Below are positions 2,944-48,883 of a stretch of 64,000 nucleotides of DNA, in pieces (positions within the stretch are counted from its first letter, which is position 1; each line of letters starts with the position of its first letter). The position numbers were made by a program, and so were the translations under genes. The stretch comes from Enorma phocaeensis (GTDB lineage Bacteria; Actinomycetota; Coriobacteriia; Coriobacteriales; Coriobacteriaceae). The notes beneath the pieces are model-generated. The model saw only the letters and a program-made list of their open reading frames with translations, was not told where the DNA came from and did not search any database. The stretch spans positions 186,001-250,000 of the forward strand of contig NZ_JACJKQ010000002.1 of NCBI RefSeq assembly GCF_016901575.1, in the 5' to 3' direction.

Positions 2944-3203
2944 TTATCCGAACAGCATGTTGGCAAGCGCTGTGCCGTTGTAGCCCAGGAATGCCCCGAT
3001 GGCGGCGGCGATGAGCATGAAGCATATGGAGCGGATGACCTTCATCCACAGAGGAATCATGCGCTCGCGACGCCCGCGCTCGGTGCCGCGGTCAACCGGC
3101 TTGCCGCTCCAGAAATCGCAGACCTCGCTATGGGCTACCAGGCCGTGCTCTTTCTCATGCCTGCCTGTGCGCGGTGCTCCTTGATGCGCTTCCCGATTTC
3201 CAT
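2944..3203 (-). pseudogene. Remnant of an XRE regulator with C-terminal membrane segment
   Basis: From an ATG at 3203, preceded by GAAGGGAG, the frame reads MEIGKRIKEHRAQAGM, the standard start of small XRE helix-turn-helix regulators in this lineage (compare the intact gene at 34531). It then reads into a stop after 22 residues. Another frame, open as part of 2944-3285, continues to the stop with a hydrophilic stretch and one clear membrane helix (ICFMLIAAAIGAFLGY near the C-terminus). The recognition helices (SQxxLAxxxxVSRQTVSNWE) are absent. I read this as a regulator that lost most of its HTH by deletion plus frameshift. An alternative is a genuine small membrane protein of up to 113 residues, but that frame has no good ribosome site. 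Confidence 0.55.
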
Positions 3204-3411
3204 CGCGTGCGGTGCTCCCTTCGGTCGATCGACGCCACCCCTGTCGAGATGCACCATGACATGACGCGGAAAAGCGTACCCTCAAATGGTCCCGACAACG
3301 TCACGGCTGGAGCGAAATGGCTCCGTCAAATGTTCTTTACGTAAACTGTGAGCTGCGAAAACAATGAGGGCCGCACGGGCGGGCCGCACGTTGGCCCAAG
3401 GTGGGCGACCG

Positions 3412-4173
3412 CTAGTTGTCTCTTGCCACGCGCTTGAAGAGGGCCGCGAACAGGATGCAGCTCGCGGCGATCCATGCGGCGGTCACGGCGAGCGGGGAGA
3501 GGGCCTCGGAGGATATCAGCGTTCCGTCGACCGCCATGCCCATGAGGTCGTAAATGCCGCCGAGGGGCGTGAGGCTTGCGATCCGGGCGAGGTTCTCGTC
3601 TGCCATGCCAAACAAGGGTACGAGCGCCACCAGCAGCACGGGCACGCTGTAGAAGCCTGCGGTCATCTGGTCGCGGCAGGCAAGTCCCAAGACCAGCGAG
3701 ACGAGCACCACGGGAATCGACCCGACAAGCCCCAGCGCCATGTAGGAGCCGAGCCATGAAACGTCTCCGCCGGCGATAAAGAAGCAGGCGAGGTTGTCCA
3801 CGGAAATCGCAAGCAGGGCGAGCAGGGTTTTTGAGGCGGCGACCTCGCCCGCTCCCACGTTGGCGAGCATGAGGGTCCGGAGGGTGTGCTTCTCTTTTTC
3901 TTCGGCGATGCCATAGATCTCGATCATCGAGCCGACCATGCCGATCGTCATGCAGAGGGCCGATCCCAACGTGAATTTTATGATCTCTTGTCCCGCAAGG
4001 GCGGCCTGCCGGGCGTCGAGGCCGGCGTCTGCGGTGACATCGCCGATGACGATGCGGTAGAGCAGCATGAAGCCGATGGGCATGAGGCACACCACGGACA
4101 TGGCGGGGTTCTTTACCAGGTCGACAAGGTCCTTCTGAAGGAGCGCGCCTATCTTGCGCAGCGATGCGTTCAT
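3412..4173 (-). CDS. ABC-2 type transporter permease
   Basis: 253-residue integral membrane subunit of an ABC exporter. It has about six hydrophobic helices (e.g. FMLLYRIVIG near 35, TIGMVGSMIEIYG near 80, LGSYMALGLVGSIPVVLVSLVLG near 140-165, LLVALVPLFG near 185) and the EEKEKHTLRTLMLANV cytoplasmic loop typical of ABC-2 proteins. The start lies 1 bp after the stop of the ATPase gene, so the two are translationally linked. The protein equals in length, and resembles in topology, the divergent permease at 6787-7548, which suggests that both serve the same transport system. Substrate unknown. Confidence 0.85.
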   Translation of the reverse strand: MNASLRKIGALLQKDLVDLVKNPAMSVVCLMPIGFMLLYRIVIGDVTADAGLDARQAALAGQEIIKFTLGSALCMTIGMVGSMIEIYGIAEEKEKHTLRTLMLANVGAGEVAASKTLLALLAISVDNLACFFIAGGDVSWLGSYMALGLVGSIPVVLVSLVLGLACRDQMTAGFYSVPVLLVALVPLFGMADENLARIASLTPLGGIYDLMGMAVDGTLISSEALSPLAVTAAWIAASCILFAALFKRVARDN

Positions 4174-4174
4174 G

Positions 4175-5020
4175 TTAAAACTCCCGTCCGGTCAGCTCGA
4201 GGAAGACCTCCTCGAGGTTGGGCTCGTCAGAGTGGATGGAGAGGCATTCGCCCGCTGTTAGCAGGTCGCCAACGAGCTCGGCAGCGGCGGCATCTTTTGT
4301 GGTCTCGACAACTCCGCGGGTGCGCGTCTCGATCACCAGCCGATTGCGGGCGAACTTGAGTGTAAGGGATTTGGGCCGGTCGCATGCGACGATCGCCCCG
4401 TCGTTTAGGATCGCGACCCGGTCGCAGACGCCCGTCGCCTCTGTCATGTCATGTGTGGTGAGAAAGATCGTGGTTCCCGCGCGCCTGAGCTCCGCAAGCA
4501 TTCGATGCACCTCGGTTCGTGCGGCTGGGTCCAGCCCGCTGGTGGGCTCGTCCAAGAAAAGAAGCTCCGGGCTATGGATGAGCGCCGCCAGCAGCGCCGC
4601 ACGCTGGCGCATACCTTTAGAGCAGTTCTTTACAAGGGTCTTTCGGTCATGTGCGAGATTCATGCGCTCGAGGAGCCTGCCGATGTCGCCCGCACCGCGC
4701 CCGCGCAGCCGCGCGTAGAAGCGCAGGTTCTCCTCGATAGACATGCGGTCATACAGGGCGCTCGTGTCGGAGAGGATGCCGATGCGGTCGTAGTCGGCGT
4801 CGCTGGCGTTCTCGATCGGCCGCCCAAACAGCATGATGCGCCCCGCGTCGCGTACGAGCTGGCGGGTAAGCAGCTTGATGGTGGTGGTTTTTCCGGCACC
4901 GGAGGGTCCCAGAAAACCGAAGCACTCGCCTCGCGAGACGGAGAAGGTGAGGCCATCGAGTACGCGCTTTGTTCCAAAGGAAAGCGTCACGCCTTCCATG
5001 GAAAGGATGGTGCTAGGCAT
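4175..5020 (-). CDS. ABC transporter ATP-binding protein
   Basis: 281 residues with Walker A GPSGAGKTT near 39, Q-loop region, a signature variant NCSKGMRQRAAL near 133 (in place of LSGGQ), Walker B LLFLDEP near 155 and the switch histidine in TTHD near 188. The C-terminal ~60 residues form the substrate-type-specific tail common in drug/bacteriocin exporters (EPNLEEVFLELTGREF). The start codon overlaps the last 8 bp of the 50-residue small gene, and the stop is 1 bp from the permease. The set 5377 to 3412 therefore looks like one operon: small membrane protein, small membrane protein, ATPase, permease. Confidence 0.93.
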   Translation of the reverse strand: MPSTILSMEGVTLSFGTKRVLDGLTFSVSRGECFGFLGPSGAGKTTTIKLLTRQLVRDAGRIMLFGRPIENASDADYDRIGILSDTSALYDRMSIEENLRFYARLRGRGAGDIGRLLERMNLAHDRKTLVKNCSKGMRQRAALLAALIHSPELLFLDEPTSGLDPAARTEVHRMLAELRRAGTTIFLTTHDMTEATGVCDRVAILNDGAIVACDRPKSLTLKFARNRLVIETRTRGVVETTKDAAAAELVGDLLTAGECLSIHSDEPNLEEVFLELTGREF

Positions 5021-5165
5021 CGCGTCCCTCCGAATCCTGGTCGTGGATCGTTTTCTTCGACGTGCGTCGGCGTTGCTGACTTTTCTTCTTGCCGCCCTCG
5101 TGTGAAAAGACGCCGGCGGCGAAGCAGCATGCGATGATGATCGCTCCCATGAGTGTGGGCTCCAT
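5013..5165 (-). CDS. 50-residue basic membrane peptide in the ABC operon
   Basis: Not recognised. One hydrophobic helix (LMGAIIIACCFAAGVF, residues 5-20) is followed by a strongly basic tail (GGKKKSQQRRRTSKK). The ATG is 2 bp beyond the stop of the 69-residue gene, with GAGGAGGTG as ribosome site inside that gene; the stop overlaps the ATPase start. Tight coupling argues it is translated. A role as an accessory or regulatory peptide of the exporter is inference. Confidence 0.6.
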   Translation of the reverse strand: MEPTLMGAIIIACCFAAGVFSHEGGKKKSQQRRRTSKKTIHDQDSEGRDA

Positions 5166-5167
5166 GG

Positions 5168-5377
5168 CTAGCGCACCTCCTCGCGCTGCGCGTCGCGCGC
5201 GGCCTCGAGGGTTTTGACGCGGCGGTCGAGTCTTGCCGCCTGGTAGCCAAGCCCCATGGCAAGCAGGACGGTCGAGACGGCAAGCACGAATACGAGGACA
5301 GAGAGCTGCTCGAGGCTGAGCGGGGCGTTGGGGCCGAGGATGTCGGTGACGATCTCGGCGATGTGCTGTTCGGTCAT
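5168..5377 (-). CDS. 69-residue small membrane protein, first gene of the ABC operon
   Basis: Not recognised by family. It has an N-terminal amphipathic segment, one membrane helix (LVFVLAVSTVLLAMGLGY, about residues 27-44) and a charged, probably coiled-coil C-terminus (LDRRVKTLEAARDAQREEV). AGAAAGGAACGCC precedes the ATG. It heads the operon that continues with the 50-residue peptide, ATPase and permease. Its architecture suggests a regulator or scaffold of the exporter, which is inference. Confidence 0.6.
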   Translation of the reverse strand: MTEQHIAEIVTDILGPNAPLSLEQLSVLVFVLAVSTVLLAMGLGYQAARLDRRVKTLEAARDAQREEVR

Positions 5378-5610
5378 GGCGTTCCTTTCTGTGGGCGGCG
5401 ACCTCGCCGCCGGCGTTTCGGCACACCTGCATCATTGTCGAGAAGCACCTTGTGTACCAGGTGTTTTGTCTATCAGGAGCGGCGATGCCGACGAAAGGAG
5501 CAATAGGGGTGACGACAGGAGCAGCCGAATCTCCCGGAGGCGGATCGGTATGGGCGCCCACGCCCGTGTCCGATGCCCGTCTCCGCTTCGGTTCCTCCAT
5601 CCTCATGAGA

Positions 5611-5678
5611 AAAAGCGTGTCACAACTGACACGAACCCCTCGAATGGGGCGCCCTCATGTCAGTTGTGACACGCTTTT
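5611..5678. repeat. Perfect 21-bp inverted repeat in a 421-bp gene-free interval
   Basis: The interval 5378-5798 holds no convincing gene. It contains a left arm at 5611-5631 (AAAAGCGTGTCACAACTGAC then A) and its exact reverse complement at 5658-5678, separated by 26 bp that include a smaller CCCC/GGGG pairing. A-run on the left and T-run on the right fit a bidirectional terminator for the LytTR gene, but the arm length is unusual. It sits between the LytTR gene stop and the operon it may control. Confidence 0.75.
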
Positions 5679-5798
5679 GGGGCGGCGCGGTGCTGGCGGG
5701 GTCTTGTGGCCGCCTCGGCTTTCCCCCGGGGGATGCCGGGGCGTCTTGAAACCCCCCTGAGGGGCCTCCAACGCGACCTGCCTGGCCGCCGCTGCGCG

Positions 5799-6719
5799 TC
5801 ACTTCCAGCCGTAGCGGGAGCGCATCTCTTCGGCACGCCCCTTCGCGAGCGGGATCGAGGTCTGCGCGGCGTCCGAGAGCGTGAGGTTAAAGCTGTTGCG
5901 GGTAAAGCGCTCGACCTTCGCCACTTTCTGGACGTTCACGATGTATGACCGGTGGCAGCGGAAGAAGCCGAAGCGCTCAAGCTCGTCGGCGAGCTCGTCG
6001 AGCGTCATCTGAACGGGATAGAGCTCGCCGCGCACCGAGGCGAAGTTCTGGCGATTTACGCTTTCGATGAAGTCGACCTCGCGCGGATCGAACAGCAGCG
6101 TGGCGTCGCCCGAGCGCGCGGGGACCTTGAACACATGGACCTCGTCTCCGGCATACTCAACGTCTTCGGGGGAGTCGCCCAGCGCGGTCTTTGCCGGCAG
6201 ATAGCGGCCGTCCTCCTCGTAGAAGGCGGTTCCCGGCATGAGCAGCGCCTCGCGCAGCGGCTCGCCGCAGGTTATGACGGTGCCTCCGGCCTCTACCACC
6301 TGGCCGATCCATGTAAGGACGACGGTGCGGGCGGTGGGGGTGACGTCGGCAAGGGGGCGCTCGCAAAAGACCACCTCGGGCTCAAACAGGCTCATGCGGG
6401 CGAAGTTGGTGATGGCGCGCTGCTCGGGAGTGAGCTTTTTGAGCTGCTTGCTCGCGATGTGTTCCAGACCGAAATGCGCGATGGCGTCGCGTGCCGAGAC
6501 GCTTCCGCCCGCGATGCGCGAGAAAAACGAGAGGTATGACCGGACGCTGTCGCGGTCGAAGCCCTTGTCTGTCTCCAGGAAGAACGCGCAGCGTCGGCCT
6601 GCATAGCGCTCATGGACATGGCGGACGGCGCGGTCGACCGCCTCGCGCCCGCACTCGATGTGTACGCTCGCGCCTTCTTCGCGGTCCAGCAACTCTTCGA
6701 TGGAGTCGTATCCAGCCAT
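5799..6719 (-). CDS. LytTR-family regulator with degenerate N-terminal ABC ATPase domain
   Basis: 306 residues from the ATG at 6719 (AGGAGAGA ribosome site); the longer open frame toward 7538 is antisense to the permease gene. Residues ~1-190 resemble an ABC ATPase that has lost its Walker A loop but keeps a signature/Walker B-like stretch (LTPEQRAITNFARMSL, then PEVVFCERPLADV) and an H-loop-like segment. Residues ~200-306 are a LytTR DNA-binding domain (FIESVNRQNFASV, FFRCHRSYIVNV, PLAKGRAEEMRSRY). Such fusions are known to regulate neighbouring ABC exporter genes. Location between two permease transcription units supports this. It probably cannot hydrolyse ATP, since no P-loop is visible. 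Confidence 0.85.
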   Translation of the reverse strand: MAGYDSIEELLDREEGASVHIECGREAVDRAVRHVHERYAGRRCAFFLETDKGFDRDSVRSYLSFFSRIAGGSVSARDAIAHFGLEHIASKQLKKLTPEQRAITNFARMSLFEPEVVFCERPLADVTPTARTVVLTWIGQVVEAGGTVITCGEPLREALLMPGTAFYEEDGRYLPAKTALGDSPEDVEYAGDEVHVFKVPARSGDATLLFDPREVDFIESVNRQNFASVRGELYPVQMTLDELADELERFGFFRCHRSYIVNVQKVAKVERFTRNSFNLTLSDAAQTSIPLAKGRAEEMRSRYGWK

Positions 6720-6786
6720 GTCTCTCCTCTTGCTTGCGTCTGGGTCTTGCCCTGGGTCCACAGTATATCGGGTATCATGAGAAGCC

Positions 6787-7548
6787 ATGAGTAGAAGCAA
6801 CCCCTCACATACCGCCGCCCTCGTGCGGCGCGACCTCCTCGATGCGCTGCGCAATCCCACCGCGGTCGCGATGCTTCTCGCGTGCGCGGCAATCGCGGCG
6901 ATCTTTGCCCTGACCGCACGCGGCGGGACCCGTTTTGCGCCCGGCGAGGCACCGGCGTTTCTGATGGCGGCGATGCTCGCGTGCGCGCCGTCGTTTGTCG
7001 GCTGCGCGATGTCGCTGTACATAATGTCTGAGGAGCGAGAGCGGGGCATGCACATCACCTTGGCCGAGGCGGGCGTGTCGATGGGCAGGGTCGCCGTGGC
7101 GAAGCTCATCGCGTCGACGATCTCGATGGCGGTCACCGAGGCGGTGATGTACCTGGCGATCGGCCCGGGCATCATCGCGCCTGGCGCCATGGCGGCGTTT
7201 GCCGCATGGAGCGTGGTGGCGTCGATGCCGGTACTTATAGGCGGGATCACCTGCGGCTTGCTGTCGCGCGACCAAACATCTACCAGCTGGATGTCGGTGA
7301 TCATCATGGTGGTCGCCGTGTCTCCCGTGCTGTCGTTCACCTCAGACAACATCCACGCCGTGACCTGGCTGCTCCCGATGGGGTCCGCGGTCGAGCTGAT
7401 CCGTCTAGCCAACGGCATGGAGCCCATGGCGCCCGCCGGGGTGCTCGTCGCGCTCATGGTCCTGTGGACGGCCGCCTCCGTCATGCTTGCCCGATATGCT
7501 TGCCGGCGGGCGTCCGACGAGCTTGAAAAGAGCGTCATGCGTCGCTAG
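6787..7548 (+). CDS. ABC-2 type permease, divergent from the LytTR regulator
   Basis: 253 residues with about six membrane helices (AVAMLLACAAIAAIFAL near 30, AFLMAAMLACAPSFVG near 57, SVIIMVVAVSPVLSF near 170, AALMVLWTAASVMLA near the end) and an MSEERERGMHITLAEAGVS loop matching the corresponding EEKEKHTLRTLML loop of the permease at 3412-4173. Only 67 bp separate its start from the LytTR start, so one control region serves both. Likely the second half of a heteromeric exporter with the minus-strand ATPase/permease; substrate unknown. Confidence 0.85.
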   Translation: MSRSNPSHTAALVRRDLLDALRNPTAVAMLLACAAIAAIFALTARGGTRFAPGEAPAFLMAAMLACAPSFVGCAMSLYIMSEERERGMHITLAEAGVSMGRVAVAKLIASTISMAVTEAVMYLAIGPGIIAPGAMAAFAAWSVVASMPVLIGGITCGLLSRDQTSTSWMSVIIMVVAVSPVLSFTSDNIHAVTWLLPMGSAVELIRLANGMEPMAPAGVLVALMVLWTAASVMLARYACRRASDELEKSVMRR

Positions 7549-7649
7549 GGACGTCTTGATGAGATGTCCATGTCCACGGCGTCGGGCCGGGCGAGTGCGG
7601 GCATGCCGTGTATCATGGGTCTGGCAAACGGCAACGGAAGGGTGGGCCC

Positions 7650-9023
7650 ATGACAGCGGATGGCACGCAGGCACAGCGCGACGATATGGTGACGGACGAG
7701 GACGTGGCGGCGGCAGGGCGGATGCTCGAGTTCATCTCCAGCTGCCCGAGCATGTTCCATACTGCCCACGAGGTCGCTCGACGCCTCGATGATGCGGGCT
7801 TCACAAGGCTGTATGAAGGCGACGCATGGGATGTTCGGCCGGGCTCGTGCTGCTATGTGGCGCGCAACGGGTCGAGCGTCGTGGCGTTCAAGGTGGGGGA
7901 GCGCGCCGCCAGCCCGGAGGGGCTCCATTTTCAGCTGACCGCCGCGCACGGGGATTCGCCGACCTTCAAGGTGAAGAGCGTTCCGGTTGTCGACGGACCG
8001 GAGGGCGCGTTGTGCCTGGACACAGAGCCCTACGGCGGCATGATCGACTATTCATGGTTCGATCGCCCGCTTTCGCTGGCGGGCCGCGTGCTCGTGCAGC
8101 GCGGCGACAAGGTGGAGAGCCGCCTGGTGTCGCTCGAGCAGCCGATAGCGATGATTCCCAGCCTCGCGATCCACCTCGACCGAGGTGTGAACGACGGCTT
8201 TGCCCCCAACCGCGCAACCGACCTCTGCCCCATGGTCTCTGCCGGGCGCATGGATGCAGCGGGCTTTGAGGCCCTTGTGGCGGACGCCGCCGGCACGCGC
8301 CCCGAAGAGGTGCTGGCGCGCGACCTGTTCTTGGTGAATCTGCAGAAGGGGTGCGTGTGGGGCGCCGCGCAGGAGTTCGTCTCCGCCCCGCGCCTTGACG
8401 ACCTCATGTGCGTCTTCGCCTCGCTGGAGGCGTTCCTTGCGGCGCGAAACCCGGGCTCGGTCAACGTGTTCTGCTGCTTCGATAACGAGGAAGTGGGGTC
8501 GAACACCAAGCAGGGGGCGATGTCCACGCTGCTTCGCGACGTGCTCGTCCGCACGGTCGAGGCGCTGGGCATGGGTGCGGAGGAGTACCGGCGCGCCCTT
8601 GCAAAGTCGATGTTGGTGAGCTGCGACAATGCCCACGCGGTGCATCCCAACCGCCCCGAGAAGCACGATCAGAAGAACCGCTGCCGCCTGAACGGCGGGC
8701 TCGCCGTCAAAGAGGCGGCAAACCAGCACTACTGCACCGACGCCTTCAGCCGCGCCGCCTTTGTGGCCGTGTGCCGCCGGGCGGGCGTGCCGTTGCAGAC
8801 GTTTGCCAACCGCAGCGACATGGCGGGAGGCTCGACCTTGGGCAACCTCTCAAACATTCAGGCAAGCATGCATGCCGTAGACGTGGGCTGCCCGCAGCTC
8901 GCCATGCACTCCGCCTTCGAGACGGCCGGCACGCGCGACGTGGGCCTGGCTACCCGTGCGCTCCAGGCGTTCTTCGAGGCCGACCTGCATATTCACGAGG
9001 CCGATTCCGTAAGCTTCGCGTAG
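7650..9023 (+). CDS. apeB: M18 family aminopeptidase (aspartyl aminopeptidase type)
   Basis: Cytosolic dinuclear zinc aminopeptidase that removes N-terminal acidic or other residues from peptides. 457 residues from the ATG at 7650 (GGAAGGGTGGG upstream). Family landmarks: SCPSMFHTAHEVARRL near 28, LTAAHGDSPTFKVKS near 98 with the first zinc His, CFDNEEVGSNTKQGA near 285 with the catalytic Glu pair, SCDNAHAVHPNRPEKH near 335, QHYCTDAF, NRSDMAGGSTLGN near 405, and MHSAFETAG near 430 with the last zinc His. All expected metal ligands are present. It ends 12 bp before the convergent transporter gene. Confidence 0.95.
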   Translation: MTADGTQAQRDDMVTDEDVAAAGRMLEFISSCPSMFHTAHEVARRLDDAGFTRLYEGDAWDVRPGSCCYVARNGSSVVAFKVGERAASPEGLHFQLTAAHGDSPTFKVKSVPVVDGPEGALCLDTEPYGGMIDYSWFDRPLSLAGRVLVQRGDKVESRLVSLEQPIAMIPSLAIHLDRGVNDGFAPNRATDLCPMVSAGRMDAAGFEALVADAAGTRPEEVLARDLFLVNLQKGCVWGAAQEFVSAPRLDDLMCVFASLEAFLAARNPGSVNVFCCFDNEEVGSNTKQGAMSTLLRDVLVRTVEALGMGAEEYRRALAKSMLVSCDNAHAVHPNRPEKHDQKNRCRLNGGLAVKEAANQHYCTDAFSRAAFVAVCRRAGVPLQTFANRSDMAGGSTLGNLSNIQASMHAVDVGCPQLAMHSAFETAGTRDVGLATRALQAFFEADLHIHEADSVSFA

Positions 9024-9035
9024 GGTCGCCAGGCG

Positions 9036-10286
9036 CTACGCGAGGCCATCGAGCTGCCCGATGTCGCCGCAGACGGGGATGCCCGCGGCGCGCGCCGCCT
9101 CGAGGAGCTCGGCGTTGCGGGCGTCCATGGCGCCGAAGGACGACCTCAGGCACACGACGGCGCGGCAGGCGAGCAGCGCCTCTTTTGCCCGGTCGACGGC
9201 TTCCGGGCCGACGGGCTCGAAATCTGCGGCAAAGATCGCCGTGGCGGCAAGGCGGGCGGCGAGCTGGCCGTCGATGTCGCCCGGATAGAGGACGCCCGCC
9301 GCGAAGGGGATGCCGCGTCGCTGCAGGGCCCGAAACGTCGACGTTCCCGTGCCGCCGCCCGCTATCACGAAGACCTGCGGCTCGCCGGCGGGGCGGGCAA
9401 GCTCGACGGAGCCTGAGACCGGGTCGTAGCTTGCGGGCTCGACGCCGTAGAGGCGCGAGACCATCTCGGTCGACAGGGCGGCGTCGGGCGCGCCCTGGAA
9501 TATCACGCGCCCTCCATGTATGCAGGCGATGCGGTCTGCCGCGCGCAGGGCCATCCCGATGTCGTGCAGGGACGCCACGACGGCCATGCGCCGTTCTCGC
9601 GCCCGGTTCCTCAGCAGCTGGAGCATGCCGATCTGCGAATGGATGTCCAGATAGGAGGTTGGCTCGTCGAGCACGAGCAGCTTGGGCTCTTGGCAGAGGG
9701 CGCGCGCGATGAGGACGCGCTGGCGTTGGCCGTCGCTCACGTGGGCGGCGTCTCGGTCGCGCAGCCCCCAGGTGCCGGTCGCCTCCATGGCCTCGCGCAC
9801 GCAGCGACGGTCCTCAGGCGAGAGCACTCCCAGGCTGCCGGTATAGGGATGGCGCCCCGCCTCGACGATGTCCTGGCAGGTTATGAGGTCGGTTTTGTGG
9901 CGGTCGGTGAACAGCGCCGCCATGGTGCGGGCGCGCTCGGTGCCGGGGATCGTGTCGAGCGCCCGCCCAAAGAGCATGATGGAGCCCCCGAGCGCCTTGA
10001 GTTGCCCGGCGATGGTTCGCAGCATGGTCGTTTTGCCGGACCCGTTGGGCCCCACGAGCACGAGCAGCTCGCCCGGACGTACCGCAAGATCGACGTCGCT
10101 CACCAGGGCGCGAGAGGCGTGGCCGACGGCAAGCCCGCGCGTCTCGAGGGCGAGGGGCGTGTCGCCTGGGGCGCCGCTCGGGGCGCCGTCCCCCGTTGAG
10201 GCGTCGGCCGGATGGGGGCGCATGCCGTGCGCATGGGGCGCGGCGGGGCGCCTGCACCGGTCTTGTCGTGCGCGGAGGTCCATCAT
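9036..10286 (-). CDS. FecE-type ABC ATPase with an additional C-terminal Rossmann-like domain
   Basis: 416 residues. Residues ~45-290 form an iron-chelate/heme importer ATPase: Walker A GPNGSGKTT near 78, signature HVSDGQRQRVLIARAL near 182, Walker B LLVLDEP near 205 and switch SLHD near 239. Residues ~305-416 are an unusual extension starting with VFVIAGGGTGTSTFRAL, a glycine-rich nucleotide-binding-like turn, and ending CGDIGQLDGLA. The first of two adjacent ATGs overlaps the permease stop, with GGAAAGGAT upstream. It is the last gene of a binding protein-permease-ATPase operon. The function of the extra domain is unknown. Confidence 0.92.
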   Translation of the reverse strand: MMDLRARQDRCRRPAAPHAHGMRPHPADASTGDGAPSGAPGDTPLALETRGLAVGHASRALVSDVDLAVRPGELLVLVGPNGSGKTTMLRTIAGQLKALGGSIMLFGRALDTIPGTERARTMAALFTDRHKTDLITCQDIVEAGRHPYTGSLGVLSPEDRRCVREAMEATGTWGLRDRDAAHVSDGQRQRVLIARALCQEPKLLVLDEPTSYLDIHSQIGMLQLLRNRARERRMAVVASLHDIGMALRAADRIACIHGGRVIFQGAPDAALSTEMVSRLYGVEPASYDPVSGSVELARPAGEPQVFVIAGGGTGTSTFRALQRRGIPFAAGVLYPGDIDGQLAARLAATAIFAADFEPVGPEAVDRAKEALLACRAVVCLRSSFGAMDARNAELLEAARAAGIPVCGDIGQLDGLA

Positions 10287-11419
10287 CGGTATCCTTTCCG
10301 GCGCAGCATGAGCGCGATCACCACCGGCGCGCCAAACACGGCGGTGACGGCGCTCACCGAAAGCTCTACGGGCGAGAAGAGGGTTCGGGCGAGCAGGTCG
10401 CAGCCGCAGCAGAAAACCGAGCCTGCCAAAAAGCATGCGGGCATGACCAGGAGCGGCCGCGAGGAGCCGACGGCGAGGCGCGCCAGATGCGGCGCCGCGA
10501 TGCCTACGAACGATATGGGGCCGGCGAAGGCCGTGACGGTCGCCGAGAGCAGGCTTGAGACGAGCACGATGAGCACGCGAAGGCGGCGCACGTCCACCCC
10601 GACGCTATGGGCGAACGCCTCGCCCAGCTGATAGGCGCCCAGGGGTTTCGACAGCGCGAAGACCACGATGGAGACCGCGACGATCGCCGCCGTGGCCACG
10701 CCGAGGTCGGACCACGAGGAGCCCGAGAAGCTTCCCTGCGACCAGCTCTGCAGGTTTACGATGTCCTGGTCGTCGGCGAACGCGATGAGGAAGTTGGTGG
10801 CCGCCGAGCACACATAGCCCACCATGATGCCGGCGATGATGAGCATGCTTTGCGTGCGCACGCGACGTGCCAGCACGAGGGCCGCCCCCATGGTCGCAAG
10901 CGAGCCCGCAAGCGCGGCGGCAACCGACCCCCACGGGGTCAGGACCTGGCGGGCGCCTAGCAGCACGATCATGGCGAGCGCCACCGCCAGGCGCGCGCCC
11001 GACGAGATGCCGAGCACAAAGGGGTCGGCGATGGGATTGTTGAAAAAGGTCTGAAGCAGGAAGCCGGAAAGCGACAGGGCCCCGCCAAGAATCGCCGAGG
11101 CCAGCACGCGGGGCAGGCGGATCTGCCACACGATTTGCGAGAGGGTCGTTCCGTCCGGCCCCGACAAGATGCTGTCGAGCACCTCCGCCGGCGTCGCGCC
11201 GACGCTTCCGATGCAGATGCCGGCGACCAGAAGGATGGCAAGCGCGCATCCCAGCGCGGCCCAGACGGCGAGCGCCCGAAGACGCCGCGCGGGCATGCGG
11301 CCGGAGCGGGCGCTCCGAGAGGAGGCGGGGAAGTCGTCAAGGGGCCTTGGGCGTTCGCGCTGCCCCTCGGGCGCGGGGTCCGCCGCGCTGTGATCGAGGC
11401 AGGGACGGTGCGCCGTCAT
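10283..11419 (-). CDS. FecCD-family iron-chelate/cobalamin type ABC permease
   Basis: 378 residues with about nine to ten membrane helices after a ~45-residue polar N-terminus. FecCD landmarks include RLPRVLASAILGGALSLSG near 103, the NNPIADPFVLGISSGA loop near 128, WSQGSFSGSSW near 225, and GPISFVGIAAPHLAR near 306, the ATPase-contacting coupling helix. The ATG at 11419 overlaps the stop of the binding-protein gene (ATGA), indicating translational coupling. It imports ferric siderophore, heme or a related chelate together with its neighbours; the exact ligand cannot be read from sequence. Confidence 0.93.
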   Translation of the reverse strand: MTAHRPCLDHSAADPAPEGQRERPRPLDDFPASSRSARSGRMPARRLRALAVWAALGCALAILLVAGICIGSVGATPAEVLDSILSGPDGTTLSQIVWQIRLPRVLASAILGGALSLSGFLLQTFFNNPIADPFVLGISSGARLAVALAMIVLLGARQVLTPWGSVAAALAGSLATMGAALVLARRVRTQSMLIIAGIMVGYVCSAATNFLIAFADDQDIVNLQSWSQGSFSGSSWSDLGVATAAIVAVSIVVFALSKPLGAYQLGEAFAHSVGVDVRRLRVLIVLVSSLLSATVTAFAGPISFVGIAAPHLARLAVGSSRPLLVMPACFLAGSVFCCGCDLLARTLFSPVELSVSAVTAVFGAPVVIALMLRRKGYR

Positions 11420-35492: not shown

Positions 35493-35525
35493 TCCGGCGC
35501 CCGCTCACGTGAGGCGGGCGCCGGA
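35493..35525. terminator. Bidirectional terminator hairpin
   Basis: Perfect 12-bp arms TCCGGCGCCCGC and GCGGGCGCCGGA around TCACGTGAG. It lies just after the DUF6440 stop; the convergent HipA-like frame stops inside its loop region at 35505. Confidence 0.75.
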
Positions 35526-35951
35526 TCGACCGAACTCTGATGTGCGGCTCGGTCGGTCGATGAACATCTTGACAAGGTCGTTTTGTGTGACGGCGTCATA
35601 TCCATGCGTGTCAAACGATTCCTGGTCGTCTTCGCTGCGAACGACGACATCGCCTTTGCAATCTCTACCGCAAGCCGCCAGGAGAGAGAGCCAGTCCTGC
35701 TCTGGAATTCTGAGTTCTCCCGCCAGGGCGCGTCGTGCCTCCCCTTCGGGTAGCAGACCTTCGAAATATGGCTGAAACGCATCAAGCTTGTACGGGAGAT
35801 TTGAGAGGGGGAGAGAAAACGAAAGCGGCGTAGCCCAGGCCGCGGAAAGATAGTTCGGGTCATGGCTAAACGTCATTGATGACCTCGAAATGGTCCCCAC
35901 GGGATACATATCGTGATATGCGAGCCGAAAAACCTTGAAAGCGTCACCCAT
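35505..35951 (-). CDS. HipA N-terminal (HipS-like) domain without kinase
   Basis: 148 residues with a strong ribosome site (AAAGGAGGGACTG). It matches the first domain of HipA toxins: VGTISRSSMTFSHDPNYLS, TPLSFSLPLSNLPYKLDAF, PYFEGLLPEGEARRALAGEL, DWLSLLAACGRDCKGDVVV. The ~300-residue HipA kinase core (P-loop, catalytic Asp, activation loop) is absent; the frame ends FGRSGARLT at the terminator. In HipBST systems a free-standing HipS of similar fold is the antitoxin, but no HipT kinase or HipB is adjacent. Most simply, this is a 3'-truncated hipA that is still translatable. Confidence 0.75.
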   Translation of the reverse strand: MGDAFKVFRLAYHDMYPVGTISRSSMTFSHDPNYLSAAWATPLSFSLPLSNLPYKLDAFQPYFEGLLPEGEARRALAGELRIPEQDWLSLLAACGRDCKGDVVVRSEDDQESFDTHGYDAVTQNDLVKMFIDRPSRTSEFGRSGARLT

Positions 35952-35975
35952 CAGTCCCTCCTTTATTCTATGCCG

Positions 35976-37157
35976 TCAATCGGAACGGAAATATGCCTGA
36001 TGGTGTACCATGACATCGTCTAGAATGCCTGAGTCATCAAAACCAAGTCTCCAAGACGCCGGATCATAAGGATTATCAATTTCGTATTTCAAGCTATATC
36101 CACCGTAGGTTGCCTCAAAGCTATCGTTTGGTTGACCATACAGCTTTAATACATCTTCTCTGGTTGACCATCCCAGCATCAACCCACAGGGAATGCGTAG
36201 TTCCGTACCGGAAAAGTCGTAGTTACCATATATGACATGAATACCTCCCACCGTGCTCTCGGCGACAGGGATCGTGCTTTCGGTGGTGTTGAAGACACAG
36301 ACGCTGATATCCTGCTCGTGGTTATTGGTCAACGAGACCCATTCCCATTCATAGGACGCATACGGGCCTTCCGCGCCAGCCAGAGAAAGCCCGGCATCCT
36401 CCTCGGAAATCACCCACCCATCGTCAAGGAAAGCCGCAAGGGGAACTGGTAATGTATAAACCGTATCATTGATCTGGATTGAAAAACTTTCCCAATCATT
36501 CGGGAGTTCAGGGGATGGTGGGTACAATTCTGCCCCTGACGCGTCGAGTTCTGTCATAAAATCGAGCGACATCAAGGTGGAGGTGTGCGGCAGGTAGGTG
36601 ACTTTCGCAAACAGATTGTAGTCGTTCCCGCCCCACAGCGCGCGCCCTTCCTCGTACCTCTTTTCACTGATTTCAAAGGAATGCCGCTCGCCGGTCATAT
36701 CTACGCCGCGCAGATAATAGTCGTCCGAACCATAGTCCCCGATCCCTCGCGAATATTCAAATTCCAGCCGCTCCAAATAGGCGGCTTCCGGGTGCTCGAG
36801 ATAGGGTATATCCAAGATTAGAGGGCGGACAAGGAAAAAAGCAGCACCCACACACACAATGATTACAACCGTTCTTCCAATTATTTGCTTGAACGATTTA
36901 TTTGGCTGAGCCAGTTTTACCATAGAAACGAGGGCTATAATCACGGCCAATAGTCCCAAAACGCCATTGACAATTACAGTTTGTATGTATCCTGTAATTC
37001 CGATGGCAAGAGCATCGGAACTCGCAAACCAATCCAATACTGCAAAGGCAGTAATAGGTAAGAAAAAAAGGATTACAAGCGACAAAACAAATAGTTTTAT
37101 CCCTTTTTTCTCTGATTTGCAGTTGTGCTTTTCTTGATTAATTCTATCATCGTCCAT
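35976..37157 (-). CDS. Membrane-anchored hypothetical protein in AT-rich island
   Basis: 393 residues. Three N-terminal membrane helices (LFVLSLVILFFLPITAFAVL near 25, GYIQTVIVNGVLGLLAVIIAL near 57, TVVIIVCVGAAFFLVRPLIL near 93) are followed by a ~280-residue, probably extracytoplasmic, domain rich in Tyr, Asp and Glu with no known family. Ile/Lys/Asn-rich codons and low GC contrast strongly with the neighbours, a sign of recent transfer, perhaps from a Firmicute. It is followed in the same direction by... nothing coding; the DUF3592-like gene lies upstream. Function unknown. Confidence 0.7.
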   Translation of the reverse strand: MDDDRINQEKHNCKSEKKGIKLFVLSLVILFFLPITAFAVLDWFASSDALAIGITGYIQTVIVNGVLGLLAVIIALVSMVKLAQPNKSFKQIIGRTVVIIVCVGAAFFLVRPLILDIPYLEHPEAAYLERLEFEYSRGIGDYGSDDYYLRGVDMTGERHSFEISEKRYEEGRALWGGNDYNLFAKVTYLPHTSTLMSLDFMTELDASGAELYPPSPELPNDWESFSIQINDTVYTLPVPLAAFLDDGWVISEEDAGLSLAGAEGPYASYEWEWVSLTNNHEQDISVCVFNTTESTIPVAESTVGGIHVIYGNYDFSGTELRIPCGLMLGWSTREDVLKLYGQPNDSFEATYGGYSLKYEIDNPYDPASWRLGFDDSGILDDVMVHHQAYFRSD

Positions 37158-37209
37158 AGTGTATGCCCTTTATCACAGATAGGAACATGATTCGTTGAGG
37201 TACAATGCC

Positions 37210-37998
37210 TTAGCCGTTTGTATCCATTCGGGGCAAGGCCAATACATCACCAGTCTCTGGATTTAAGTAAAGTGTAACCCACTGGCCAATTTCATAACGC
37301 TTGCCATGGATAATGGGCAGGGTGACTTCTTTTTCCTCGCCATTGACTCTGACAACACAAAAGGCGTAAACATCACCCTCGCTGTCTTTGCGGAATCCAT
37401 GAACCTGAGCGGTGATAGGCCGTAGCTCTCCCAACTCGATTTTACGGCGGGAGCGATGAGTGCCGACAAAACGCCGGATCCAGAATATAACGAGATACAG
37501 CACCGCGCAAAACAAACACAATGACATTTCGGAAAGGGAAAATCCCTGTGGCAAATGTGAACACGCCAAACTAATCAATACTGGCAGAGTAACAATCATA
37601 ACCAAAAACAACCAAGTTACCACACGAGCGTGTCTGTATTCCCGTTTCTCAGCCGCACTCATGACGAGCCGGAAATCCTCCTTCTTCGGATGATAGCGCA
37701 GCTGAAGAATATCACCCACTTTGGGAAGATCGTATATACGGGGGAATATCCAGCTTCGATACCAGTCTATACCCTGCCATTGAAAAACAAGATCCAGTTT
37801 GTACTTTCGCGGCTCTAAAACGCCATCGCTATCCTTTTTGTCAATTGTCTCAATATGCAGGACACGGGCTGTTATCGGCTTCCACTTTCGTCGTTCCAGC
37901 CACTTTATGACGCGCCACAGCAGGAAGAAAACGATAATCAGGATAAAAGGCAGAAGCGTCGGGAATATGATACTCCAAAATGCCGTCGAATTGTCCAC
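37210..37998 (-). CDS. DUF3592-like membrane protein in AT-rich island
   Basis: 262 residues from the GTG at 37998 (AAAGGAGGAGCGGCTC upstream). Membrane helices near 10-30 (IIFPTLLPFILIIVFFLLW), 130-150 (VVTWLFLVMIVTLPVLISLA) and 160-178 (MSLCLFCAVLYLVIFW). Two copies of a beta-rich module (ITARVLHIETIDKK... VGDILQLRYHPKK and ITAQVHGFRKDSEG... IGQWVTLYLNPETG) resemble DUF3592, which forms small beta domains near the membrane. Same low-GC character as the downstream gene; the pair probably transferred together. Confidence 0.7.
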   Translation of the reverse strand: MDNSTAFWSIIFPTLLPFILIIVFFLLWRVIKWLERRKWKPITARVLHIETIDKKDSDGVLEPRKYKLDLVFQWQGIDWYRSWIFPRIYDLPKVGDILQLRYHPKKEDFRLVMSAAEKREYRHARVVTWLFLVMIVTLPVLISLACSHLPQGFSLSEMSLCLFCAVLYLVIFWIRRFVGTHRSRRKIELGELRPITAQVHGFRKDSEGDVYAFCVVRVNGEEKEVTLPIIHGKRYEIGQWVTLYLNPETGDVLALPRMDTNG

Positions 37999-38164
37999 GA
38001 GCCGCTCCTCCTTTCGGCTATGTATACAATCATTCAAGTCTCTTATATATTGCAAGCAGTAAGGTTGCCACCATTTGAAAGTAAAACCCAGATAAACTTT
38101 GGGTAAACAAGAGTGCCTTTGATAAAGGCTGAAGCTTAAGGGTTTGGGACTATCCCAAAATAGA

Positions 38165-38205
38165 AAAATGGCGCTTCGGCAGACAGCCCGGAGCGTCATT
38201 TTTCC
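38165..38205. terminator. Bidirectional terminator-like hairpin at the island edge
   Basis: AAAAATGGCGCT and AGCGTCATTTTT pair with one mismatch around a GC-rich loop, giving A/T tails on both sides. It separates the AT-rich pair from the ATPase gene. Confidence 0.6.
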
Positions 38206-38303
38206 GGTGTGTGGCCACACCGGATGTGCTTGCTAATCAGCAAGCCACTCCGGTATGGCAAGCACCGCTTTTCAGCAAGTGTACATACACTTGCTGTGCT
38301 TGC
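38204..38303. repeat. Cluster of nested palindromes over the 3' end of the ATPase gene
   Basis: CCGGTGTG/CACACCGG at 38204-38223, GCTTGCT/AGCAAGC near 38229-38244 and CAGCAAGTGTA/TACACTTGCTG at 38273-38296, the last enclosed by GCAAGCA (38258-38264) and TGCTTGC (38297-38303). The last ~22 codons of the ATPase are read through this array. Confidence 0.8.
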
Positions 38304-45487: not shown

Positions 45488-45940
45488 ATGGCAATCAAGG
45501 ACGTGCTTCCCCGTCTGCGCCGCGAACGAGGGCTCACGCAGGAGGATTTGGCGAAGCGGCTCTACATCACCCGGCAGGCGGTGAGCCGTTGGGAGACGGG
45601 CGAGACGACCCCGGGCATCGATATGACCAAGCTGATTGCCCTTACGCTGGACGTGCCGGTGACCGAGCTTCTGGAGATGCCCGAGCACTACTGCCAGAGC
45701 TGCGGCATGATGTTCACCGCGCCGGGTCAGCATGGCCACGAGGCGGATGGCACCGAGACCGAGGAGTTCTGCCGCTGGTGCTACGACGACGGCGCCTACA
45801 CCTACGAGACCACCATGGAAGACATGATCGAGGAATGCGCGCCGCGCATGGCGGAGGCGATGGGCTGGACCATAGACGAAAGCGCCTCGCTCTTGGGGGC
45901 GGTGCTCCCCACGCTCAAGCGCTGGCGCGATGAAGAATAG
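45488..45940 (+). CDS. XRE regulator with zinc-ribbon domain
   Basis: 150 residues (AGGAGGACCCC upstream). HTH: VLPRLRRERGLTQEDLAKRL, YITRQAVSRWETGETTPGID, KLIALTLDVPVTELLEMPE. Then a putative zinc-ribbon: YCQSCGMMFTAPGQHGHEAD with Cys pairs CQSC near 62 and CRWC near 89 (four ligands), then a helical tail (EECAPRMAEAMGWTIDESAS). Zinc-ribbon family proteins of this type occur next to GyrI-like genes, as here. A copy of its 3' end lies at 46790-46831. Confidence 0.9.
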   Translation: MAIKDVLPRLRRERGLTQEDLAKRLYITRQAVSRWETGETTPGIDMTKLIALTLDVPVTELLEMPEHYCQSCGMMFTAPGQHGHEADGTETEEFCRWCYDDGAYTYETTMEDMIEECAPRMAEAMGWTIDESASLLGAVLPTLKRWRDEE

Positions 45941-46025: not shown

Positions 46026-46775
46026 ATGGCGTTTGACTTCAAAAAAGAGTATCGCGACTTGTACCAAGCCAAGGCGAAACCGATGCGTGTCGAGGTTCCC
46101 GCGATGACGTTTGCCGCGGTCGCCGGCACGGGTGACCCCAACGAGGAGGGCGGCGCCTATTCACAGGCGCTCGCGCTGCTCTATGGGTTTTCGTATTCGG
46201 TGAAGATGGCCAAGATGGGCTCGTGGCAGCCTGAAGGCTATTTCGACTATGTGGTCCCGCCGCTTGAGGGGCTCTGGTGGAGCGGCGCCGGGGCCTTCAG
46301 CGGCACGGCTATCGTCGACAAGGGCGCGTTGTCGTGGGTCTCGCTTATCCGGCAGCCAGACTTTGTGACGCCCGAGGTGTTCGCCCGGGCGTGTGCCATG
46401 CTCGCCGAGAAGAAGCCCGAGCTTGCCGGAGCCCTCGATCGTGGCGACATGCGTCTGATCCGCTTTGCCGAGGGCCCGTGCGTGCAGATCATGCATCGCG
46501 GGCCGTACGACGATGAGCCGGCGACCATAGCAAAGCTGGCTTCATTTGTTGAGGAAGAGGGGCTTGAGACCGATATTGCCGAAGGCGGCGAGTCCCCGGT
46601 CGGTCACAGGGCGACGGGTGCATTCGATGCGGCTGCGGTGCTCGACGCCCTTGATGCGCATGGGGGAGTGCCCTCCGTCCGTCTGCATCATGAGATATAC
46701 CTGGGGGACCCGCGTCGCACAAAGCCAGAGAATCTCAAGACGGTCATCAGGCACCCCGTGCGCGTCCGTGCGTAG
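46026..46775 (+). CDS. GyrI-like small-molecule-binding protein
   Basis: 249 residues. The DUF/GyrI-like fold: FDFKKEYRDLYQAKAKPMRVEVP, MTFAAVAGTGDPNEEGGAYSQAL (split near residues 15-50), GSWQPEGYFDYVVPPLEGLWW near 64, CVQIMHRGPYDDEPATIAKL near 155, HHEIYLGDPRRTKPENLKTVIRHPV at the end. Resembles the GyrI-like cyclopropanoid cyclase/hydrolase group (YwqJ/ SbmC fold). Cytosolic. Probably linked to the XRE/zinc-ribbon gene upstream (85 bp). Confidence 0.85.
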   Translation: MAFDFKKEYRDLYQAKAKPMRVEVPAMTFAAVAGTGDPNEEGGAYSQALALLYGFSYSVKMAKMGSWQPEGYFDYVVPPLEGLWWSGAGAFSGTAIVDKGALSWVSLIRQPDFVTPEVFARACAMLAEKKPELAGALDRGDMRLIRFAEGPCVQIMHRGPYDDEPATIAKLASFVEEEGLETDIAEGGESPVGHRATGAFDAAAVLDALDAHGGVPSVRLHHEIYLGDPRRTKPENLKTVIRHPVRVRA

Positions 46776-46789
46776 GGCGCCCGCGATGT

Positions 46790-46831
46790 AGCGGTGCCCC
46801 CACGCTCAAGCGCTGGCGCGAGGGCGAGTGA
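46790..46831 (+). pseudogene. Duplicate 3' end of the XRE/zinc-ribbon gene
   Basis: The frame TLKRWREGE-stop follows a stretch of 24 bp (46798-46821) identical to 45907-45930, the penultimate codons of the XRE/zinc-ribbon gene (TLKRWRDEE-stop). The remnant sits directly after the GyrI-like gene, indicating a second, deleted copy of the regulator. Confidence 0.7.
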
Positions 46832-46885
46832 GGGGCATGGGGCTGTATCGTGGGTATACTGTGAGCTGAGGCGAGGAGGTGCCAC

Positions 46886-47170
46886 ATGGTAAACGATGTT
46901 TCGGGGTGTGCTCGCTTGAGTAGCAAGGGCGCATATTCCATCTTCTCGTTCGGTCCGCATGTCATTCGTTTCCGAACCTCACGTGCTTTAAAGCGCTACC
47001 TTTCGATTAAGCAGTGGGATAACGGTTATCTTGTTGTTGACGCCGAATATGATGGGGCATCAGCGCCGGTCGAAGAGTATATCGATCTTGTTCCGATTCT
47101 GAACAACCTTTACTTCGACGCCAAGCGTATTTTGGCACCTATTAAAGAGGTTGTGGTGAGCTATGAGTGA
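46886..47170 (+). CDS. First gene of a compact three-gene module (DUF7724-like)
   Basis: 94 residues (GCGAGGAGGTGCCAC upstream). Beta-rich start (SIFSFGPHVIRFRTSRALKRYLSIKQWDNGYLVVDAEYD is split by a turn) and a conserved-looking ending EEYIDLVPILNNLYFDAK, ILAPIKEVVVSYE. I recall a family of this type (DUF7724) with no function. The stop overlaps the next start by 8 bp. GC is clearly lower than in the neighbours. It is most probably one component of a co-translated module with the next two genes. Confidence 0.65.
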   Translation: MVNDVSGCARLSSKGAYSIFSFGPHVIRFRTSRALKRYLSIKQWDNGYLVVDAEYDGASAPVEEYIDLVPILNNLYFDAKRILAPIKEVVVSYE

Positions 47171-47390
47171 GTCCGAGCTCAAGGCGGTGGCAGATGCGGC
47201 CGACATGATCGTGAATGGATATGCGTTCACCGTCACCGATGGGTCTGTTCGCGTGCTTAATCTGAGTGCTCCGTCGCGTGCCGTTGTGCTCTCTCATGCG
47301 GGAGAGGTTCTCGAGACAAGCATGGACGACATAGAGCTGTCAATAGTAGGGGAGTATTACTGCCGTAACCGCGATTTCTTAGCGGTGTAG
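47163..47390 (+). CDS. Second gene of the module (DUF7723-like)
   Basis: 75 residues, starting inside the end of the preceding gene. Helix (SESELKAVADAADMIVNGYA) then beta strands (FTVTDGSVRVLNLSAPSRAVVLS, then TSMDDIELSIVGEYYCRN). Family memory only (DUF7723-like); function unknown. The stop is 2 bp before the ATG of the DUF4160 gene. Small size and tight packing are typical of toxin-antitoxin modules but do not prove one. Confidence 0.65.
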   Translation: MSESELKAVADAADMIVNGYAFTVTDGSVRVLNLSAPSRAVVLSHAGEVLETSMDDIELSIVGEYYCRNRDFLAV

Positions 47391-47392
47391 CC

Positions 47393-47677
47393 ATGCCAAA
47401 ATACTTCGATTTCAAGGTATGTGGATACTACCTGTATTTCACGGCACACTGCATCGTTGAGTGTATGCATGTTCATGCGAGCGACGCGAAATTAACGGAA
47501 GGCGGTTCGGCTAAGTTTTTCGTTAAGAGCAACGGAGATTCTGTCATGCAGCATCGAGGGTCTCTGTCAGAGCGAGAAGCCCGCATAATCCAGCGCTTTA
47601 TCAAGGCAAACTATCGCGAGATGTATCTTTCCTGGTCGACCATGAGCGACGAGGGGTTCTATGGAGACGAGAAGTAG
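47393..47677 (+). CDS. DUF4160 protein, third gene of the module
   Basis: 94 residues: MPKYFDFKVCGYYLYFTAH, then the hallmark ECMHVHASDAKLTEGGSAKFFV with the H-V-H pair and a charged C-terminus (SEREARIIQRFIKANYREMYL). DUF4160 proteins usually pair with DUF2442 and are considered toxin-antitoxin-like; here DUF2442 is replaced by the two preceding small genes. No RNase motif is identifiable. A second, broken DUF4160 gene lies at 56390-56599. Confidence 0.85.
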   Translation: MPKYFDFKVCGYYLYFTAHCIVECMHVHASDAKLTEGGSAKFFVKSNGDSVMQHRGSLSEREARIIQRFIKANYREMYLSWSTMSDEGFYGDEK

Positions 47678-47697
47678 CCATATCTTTCGAACGGGGA

Positions 47698-48105
47698 ATG
47701 CGAATGGAAGCATTGAACATCGGTGAGCGGATGGGTTCGCTTCCGGGCGCGTCGAACGCCTTGCATGAGGTGTGGGGATGGATGGTCTGGTGGGTAGGCG
47801 GAAAGCAGTTCGCCTGCGAATTCACGGCGGCGCCAGACGCTAAGCCGCCCTATGCGGGAAGGCACCTGCTGTCGCTCAAGTGCGACCCAGACCGCATTCG
47901 CGAGCTGAGGGCCGAGTATCCAAACGCCGTGCTGCCGGGCTACTACTCAGACGGGCGCACGTGGATTTCGGTCGACTTGAATCTCGTCGGGTCGCCCGAC
48001 GGTCCTACCGAGGAGCTTGTGCTCGACTTATGCGAGATGAGCTATCGCCTCGTGTTCGCGAAGCTTCCCAAACGCGTTCAGCGGGAGCTTGCGGCAAGCG
48101 CCTGA
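47698..48105 (+). CDS. MmcQ/YjbR-family protein
   Basis: 135 residues (AACGGGGA upstream; an ATG two codons later at 47704 is equally possible). CyaY/YjbR-like fold: HEVWGWMVWWVGGKQFACEF near 22, YAGRHLLSLKCDPDRIRELRAEYP near 50, VLPGYYSDGRTWISVDLN near 78, then helix CEMSYRLVFAKLPKRVQREL. Function of the family is unknown; predicted DNA-binding. It lies 20 bp after the three-gene module and may belong to it. Confidence 0.85.
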   Translation: MRMEALNIGERMGSLPGASNALHEVWGWMVWWVGGKQFACEFTAAPDAKPPYAGRHLLSLKCDPDRIRELRAEYPNAVLPGYYSDGRTWISVDLNLVGSPDGPTEELVLDLCEMSYRLVFAKLPKRVQRELAASA

Positions 48106-48784: not shown

Positions 48785-48883
48785 ATGGAACGAGCCCGTC
48801 CCCGATTTGCTCAGATGGGATGGATCGGGTCCGTCCCCAATCATCCACTTGGATGGATTGGACCCGTCCCCGATCATCCACCT
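48785..48883. repeat. Three 33-bp tandem units with CCCGTCCCC core
   Basis: Units at 48785-48817, 48818-48850 and 48851-48883 share the core CCGTCCCC flanked by GATGGAT/ATCATCCA. Units two and three are most alike. The last unit runs into the stop codon of the DUF2200 gene. Confidence 0.8.

Follow-up and report, generated by a model that had tools for sequence, protein, structure and literature searches.

The closest described relatives of the locus considered here are two systems built around DUF4160 toxins. In DhiTA of Dickeya dadantii, a DUF4160 toxin is paired with a DUF2442 antitoxin, and activity has been shown in vivo (PMC8198452). In Thermus, it was impossible to introduce a plasmid that carried the DUF4160 gene without the DUF2442 gene (PMC12724237). 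Few papers in the literature that we searched mention DUF4160, and none of them gives a target for DUF4160 toxins; DUF7723 and DUF7724, the families that accompany DUF4160 at the present locus, are not mentioned there at all. In the loci that we examined, canonical DUF4160 genes sit just upstream of DUF2442 genes, the opposite order to that found in the cassette described below.

We analysed a 64,000-nucleotide stretch of the Enorma phocaeensis genome (the window), the host assembly comprising 2.36 Mb in 108 contigs. An earlier inspection of the letters alone (the sequence-only reading) had drawn attention to three overlapping or abutting genes of 94, 75 and 94 residues with a lower GC content than their neighbours, and we recovered the same open reading frames at 46886–47677, all on the forward strand. 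Gene A (46886–47170) encodes a 94-residue DUF7724 protein (Pfam PF24849, E = 1.4e-33, 115 bits, curated cut-off 27), gene B (47163–47390) a 75-residue DUF7723 protein with a pI of 4.3 (PF24848, E = 3.1e-32, 111 bits, curated cut-off 27) and gene C (47393–47677) a 94-residue DUF4160 protein with a conserved HxH motif (PF13711, E = 7e-9, 36.2 bits, curated cut-off 23). The matches thus agree with the family names given previously. The A–B overlap is 8 nt and the gap from B to C is 2 nt. The GC content of the cassette is 50% compared with 65% for the whole window (0.48, 0.55 and 0.48 for A, B and C respectively), a value equally low being found in 2.8% of the 792-bp segments of the window, and cassettes at other loci are also GC-poorer than their surroundings, by approximately 1 to 14 points. 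None of the three proteins had a match above noise in NCBIfam, PADLOC or PHROGs; the best PADLOC match was PDC-M02B for A (E = 0.019), and B and C had none. Elsewhere in the window, another low-GC stretch contains, on the reverse strand, a short frame that by eye resembles the N-terminal part of HipA (35505–35951) and two membrane-protein-like genes (35976–38220). Judged from its sequence, this stretch (35505–38220) is possibly the remains of another toxin–antitoxin module.

The cassette is inserted within an otherwise intact two-gene host operon, right after the stop codon of a GyrI-like gene (46026–46775, forward strand; PF06445) and ahead of a YjbR/MmcQ gene (47698–48105, forward strand; PF04237, E = 8e-15). 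In seven relatives (G005, G006, G013, G017, G021, G026 and G028), all members of the family of Collinsella tanakaei (G020), to which the present genome also belongs, the GyrI-like gene is followed directly by YjbR, with no cassette and a gap of only around 10 to 100 bp. Since the two genes are adjacent in these genomes, the cassette is seen to be an insertion and YjbR to belong to the host operon. The interval proposed by the sequence-only reading extended to 48105, and YjbR does indeed follow the three genes, but its membership of the module is ruled out by the empty sites. Between the GyrI stop codon and the ATG of A lies the cassette leader (46776–46885, forward strand), in which positions 46791–46821 are a near-copy of 45899–45930, the 3' end of a HTH/zinc-ribbon gene located 0.9 kb upstream (96.9% over 32 bp by self-BLAST, with an identical 24-nt core). 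This near-copy sits just upstream of A and is a probable insertion scar. Together with the empty site in the seven relatives, it substantiates the earlier remark that the module occupies a rearranged site. A comparable scar is present in G268, where a 55-bp duplicate (85%) of sequence at the start of hsdR lies immediately upstream of A. The leader also contains a −10-like hexamer, TATACT, upstream of the ATG of A, as detected by pattern match; over 16 loci such hexamers are suggestive of a conserved promoter upstream of A but not significant (shuffle p = 0.07). Beyond the YjbR gene, a tandem repeat with a 33-bp unit in 1.9 copies lies at 48818–48881 of the window, between hexapeptide-transferase and DUF2200 genes.

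The sequence-only reading had stated that its proposal would fall if the three genes were not kept as a unit. We collected loci from a scan of GTDB contigs with A, from 300 Coriobacteriia genomes and from IMG/VR and phage records, and found A, B and C intact, with order and orientation preserved, at 13 loci. These comprise the window, Olsenella, Thermophilibacter, other Coriobacteriia, Christensenella, two Bacteroidales, an IMG/VR contig and a 'phage' record. The spacing in the intact loci is of the coupling type, with an A–B overlap of 4–20 nt and a B–C distance of −23 to +6 nt. Purifying selection acts on each of the three genes, with dN/dS of 0.03–0.20 for A, B and C wherever dS is unsaturated; together with the conserved order, this indicates more than a chance arrangement. 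Intact copies are on average 47% identical in A, 44% in B and 66% in C, and for C no pair of intact loci falls below 54%. The pairwise distances are correlated (rho = 0.84 for A–B, 0.61 for A–C and 0.70 for B–C; Mantel p = 0.0005 in each case), and the flanks differ between insertion sites, except in two closely related Olsenella. Conservation of the unit, correlated distances and unshared flanks together indicate that the cassette travels and evolves as one unit. The phage record (MT837901) carries the full cassette amid metabolic genes and is therefore probably chromosomal DNA, and plasmid searches found neither A nor C.

Within the 300 Coriobacteriia genomes the occurrence of the genes is strictly nested: 14 carry A (PF24849), 8 carry B (PF24848) and 7 carry a strong C, every genome with C having B and every genome with B having A. 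Approximately eight independent sites combine an intact A with a C that is missing, frameshifted or truncated, some of the frameshifts perhaps reflecting assembly errors in MAGs; examples include a frameshifted C in L007, a truncated C in L109 and a tail remnant in L006. No intact C without A was found in the 300 genomes or the collected loci, no intact C without B occurs in the sample, and the sole C located apart from the cassette (G268, contig 4) is a pseudogene. Loci L003–L017 were retrieved with A as the query, which favours A-positive cases; the 300-genome sample was searched with C too, and there the asymmetry amounts to approximately five sites against none. Loss of C beside A, never the reverse, is what one would expect of a C that does harm when its partners are missing. 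It also agrees with the behaviour of type II toxin–antitoxin systems, in which the toxin gene is not kept without the antitoxin gene, this agreement being partly biased by the A-based search. After the DUF7724 gene at L014 (5929–7112) come a broken DUF7723, of which approximately the first 19 residues are left, and next to it a T5orf172 protein, an arrangement that may represent either cassette decay or a change of partner.

To relate C to the remainder of its family, we compared alignments with hhalign, which gave 92.5% to canonical Coriobacteriia members of DUF4160 and 100% to an intermediate group, but only 26% to DUF4160 with a shallower alignment. The C subfamily has strongly conserved HxH, K41 and W81, and C is neutral to basic across loci (median pI 7.7). 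In several Coriobacteriia, the intermediate DUF4160 genes have a third kind of partner directly upstream, a family of approximately 88 residues with no Pfam match. This combination was observed at L039 (1235–1815), L040 (1214–1755), L041 (1214–1755), L042, L043 (two copies), L045, L048 and L050, and a further member of the 88-residue family is present in L096. On the basis of gene order and sequence, the two genes apparently constitute another undescribed DUF4160 pair. DUF4160 thus appears to be paired with three partner sets, namely DUF2442, the 88-residue family and DUF7724 plus DUF7723, with no detectable homology between the sets. The genome that holds the window (G000) also carries, on another contig (L064; C18, 5697–5879), a 64-residue DUF2442 gene with no DUF4160 gene in the flank examined; it is possibly an orphaned DhiA-like antitoxin.

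The partners of C in the cassette were modelled with AlphaFold2. The A model (pLDDT 92) is mixed beta with two C-terminal helices, and the B model (pLDDT 94) consists of a helix, five strands and a helix. In Foldseek searches of the PDB, neither model matched a solved structure at an E-value of 0.001 or lower, and the B model had no match in BFVD. B is strongly acidic at every locus (pI 4.1–4.8). A is mostly acidic (median pI 5.0), one exception being the A of the window, which has a pI of 6.6. Neither protein matches DUF2442 (no Pfam match; hhalign 0.1–0.4%), and neither has a detectable relation to any known antitoxin. The strand and helix pattern of A prompted us to consider it as a diverged DUF2442, an idea that received no support from Pfam, hhalign (0.1–0.2%) or Foldseek, the PDB set searched including the DUF2442-like structure 2AUW. 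B was similarly rejected as a relative of the unnamed 88-residue DUF4160 partner (hhalign 0.3%).

We consider it likely that A, B and C make up a type II-like toxin–antitoxin module with three components, C being the toxin and A and B together the antidote. The general layout of type II systems is present, with small, co-directional, overlapping genes and an acidic partner upstream of the predicted toxin. A and B would be translated ahead of C from one shared message and, since their genes overlap, are probably translationally coupled. The two proteins would together bind and silence C. If A and B were no longer supplied, whether because the element was lost or through proteolysis, stress or infection, C would be freed and growth would stop. 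That no intact C occurs without both A and B suggests that both are needed for neutralization. We infer the toxicity of this C, its neutralization by A plus B (and not by A alone) and their binding to it, as well as the trigger and the target in the cell. The suggestion that the locus might be a new toxin–antitoxin module therefore gains support as a prediction, from the genomic evidence and from the toxin function of DUF4160 (PMC8198452, PMC12724237), in a form that leaves YjbR out.

The nested pattern could also be accommodated by a two-component toxin–antitoxin system of A and C, to which B would contribute as an accessory regulator or adaptor and not as an antitoxin. A is the gene that most often survives alone, and the nesting of A over B over C would make it the protective core. 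However, every intact C in the sample has B, which is moreover the most acidic part of the cassette and whose distances track those of C no less closely than the distances of A do (rho 0.70 compared with 0.61), and we regard an A–C pair as unlikely. The presence of A alone in G020, G274 and G305 raises the further question of whether A could function independently, its link to B and C being secondary, and the T5orf172 protein that adjoins A in L014 is consistent with a free-standing role. Against this, several lone copies of A are truncated or accompanied by remnants of B or C (L006, L014, L109, L111, L030 and L031) and so look like decayed cassettes; a free-standing A is very improbable. Strong purifying selection on all three genes and the mostly chromosomal location of the copies would be compatible with a small operon of housekeeping or metabolic role, which we nevertheless find improbable given the patchy distribution, the many insertion sites, the stepwise loss from the C end and the demonstrated toxicity of the family to which C belongs.

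The surroundings of the cassette bear on another alternative, that the three genes form an anti-phage (abortive infection) system in which A and/or B would either detect infection or keep C in check, while C would kill or arrest the infected cell. In one copy (L108; G268:C49, approximately 3000–10300), the cassette is flanked by hsdS and hsdR within a type I restriction–modification operon. In the IMG/VR contig L081 (5244–11611), a gene of the XRE helix-turn-helix type runs into the start of A, and downstream are a XRE/RmrA-like gene, a PIN-domain gene and, approximately 4 kb from the cassette, the Thoeris genes ThsB and ThsA. The patchy distribution, with A in 14 of the 300 genomes, would also suit such a role. 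Toxin–antitoxin-type genes occur near several loci (Fic, PemK, PIN and Panacea), this being a plain listing of neighbours; they, and the XRE gene at L081, would equally suit the toxin–antitoxin interpretation. The check for nearby defence genes proposed by the sequence-only reading therefore has a mixed outcome: the restriction–modification operon and Thoeris each adjoin a single copy, whereas most copies have ordinary chromosomal neighbours. The latter finding, and the fact that none of the PADLOC defence models is matched by A, B or C above noise, make a dedicated anti-phage system rather unlikely. A broader proposal, which we offer only tentatively, is that unrelated antidotes may be exchanged on a common DUF4160 toxin scaffold, A-B-C being a tripartite form in which the partners jointly hold the toxin, and that the module may in places serve as an anti-phage guard; guard use would be exemplified by the copy within the type I restriction–modification operon.

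Returning to the cassette as a toxin–antitoxin module, this interpretation provides a concrete role to test for DUF7723 and DUF7724, Pfam families that have so far been without one, and adds a likely tripartite module for gut Coriobacteriia, Clostridia and Bacteroidales. It also points to two or three unrelated types of partner for the DUF4160/DhiT toxins, which have been little studied. The conserved HxH, K41 and W81 of the C subfamily offer a good handle on the DUF4160 target.

With DhiTA (PMC8198452), the cassette has in common a DUF4160-family toxin, small overlapping co-directional genes and patchy presence. DhiTA, however, is bicistronic, with the toxin gene first and a DUF2442 antitoxin, whereas the cassette has three genes, with the DUF4160 gene in final position at each of the 13 intact loci and with DUF7724 and DUF7723 as the partners. 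Since it lacks both the DUF2442 partner and the two-gene, toxin-first arrangement, we do not class the cassette as DhiTA; by analogy, its toxin family is the same, and it most likely acts in a similar way. The persistence-enhancing module of Thermus likewise contains a DUF4160 toxin that is not maintainable without its partner gene (PMC12724237). That module, which was without effect in E. coli, is plasmid-borne and consists of two genes with a DUF2442 partner, whereas the plasmids searched contained neither A nor C. Three-gene arrangements are also known, among them HipBST, the HipB component of which is a DNA-binding protein. As proposed for the cassette, two partners are encoded upstream and the toxin is last (PMC9325769, PMC10627512), but HipT is a kinase, and A, B and C contain no kinase or DNA-binding Pfam domain. 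TAC modules (PMC5105189) resemble the cassette in having three genes, one of which assists the antitoxin, and differ in that the assisting protein is a SecB-like chaperone, the SecB family in Pfam being matched by neither A nor B. Overall, the cassette is probably a three-part version of the known two-part DUF4160 toxin–antitoxin system.
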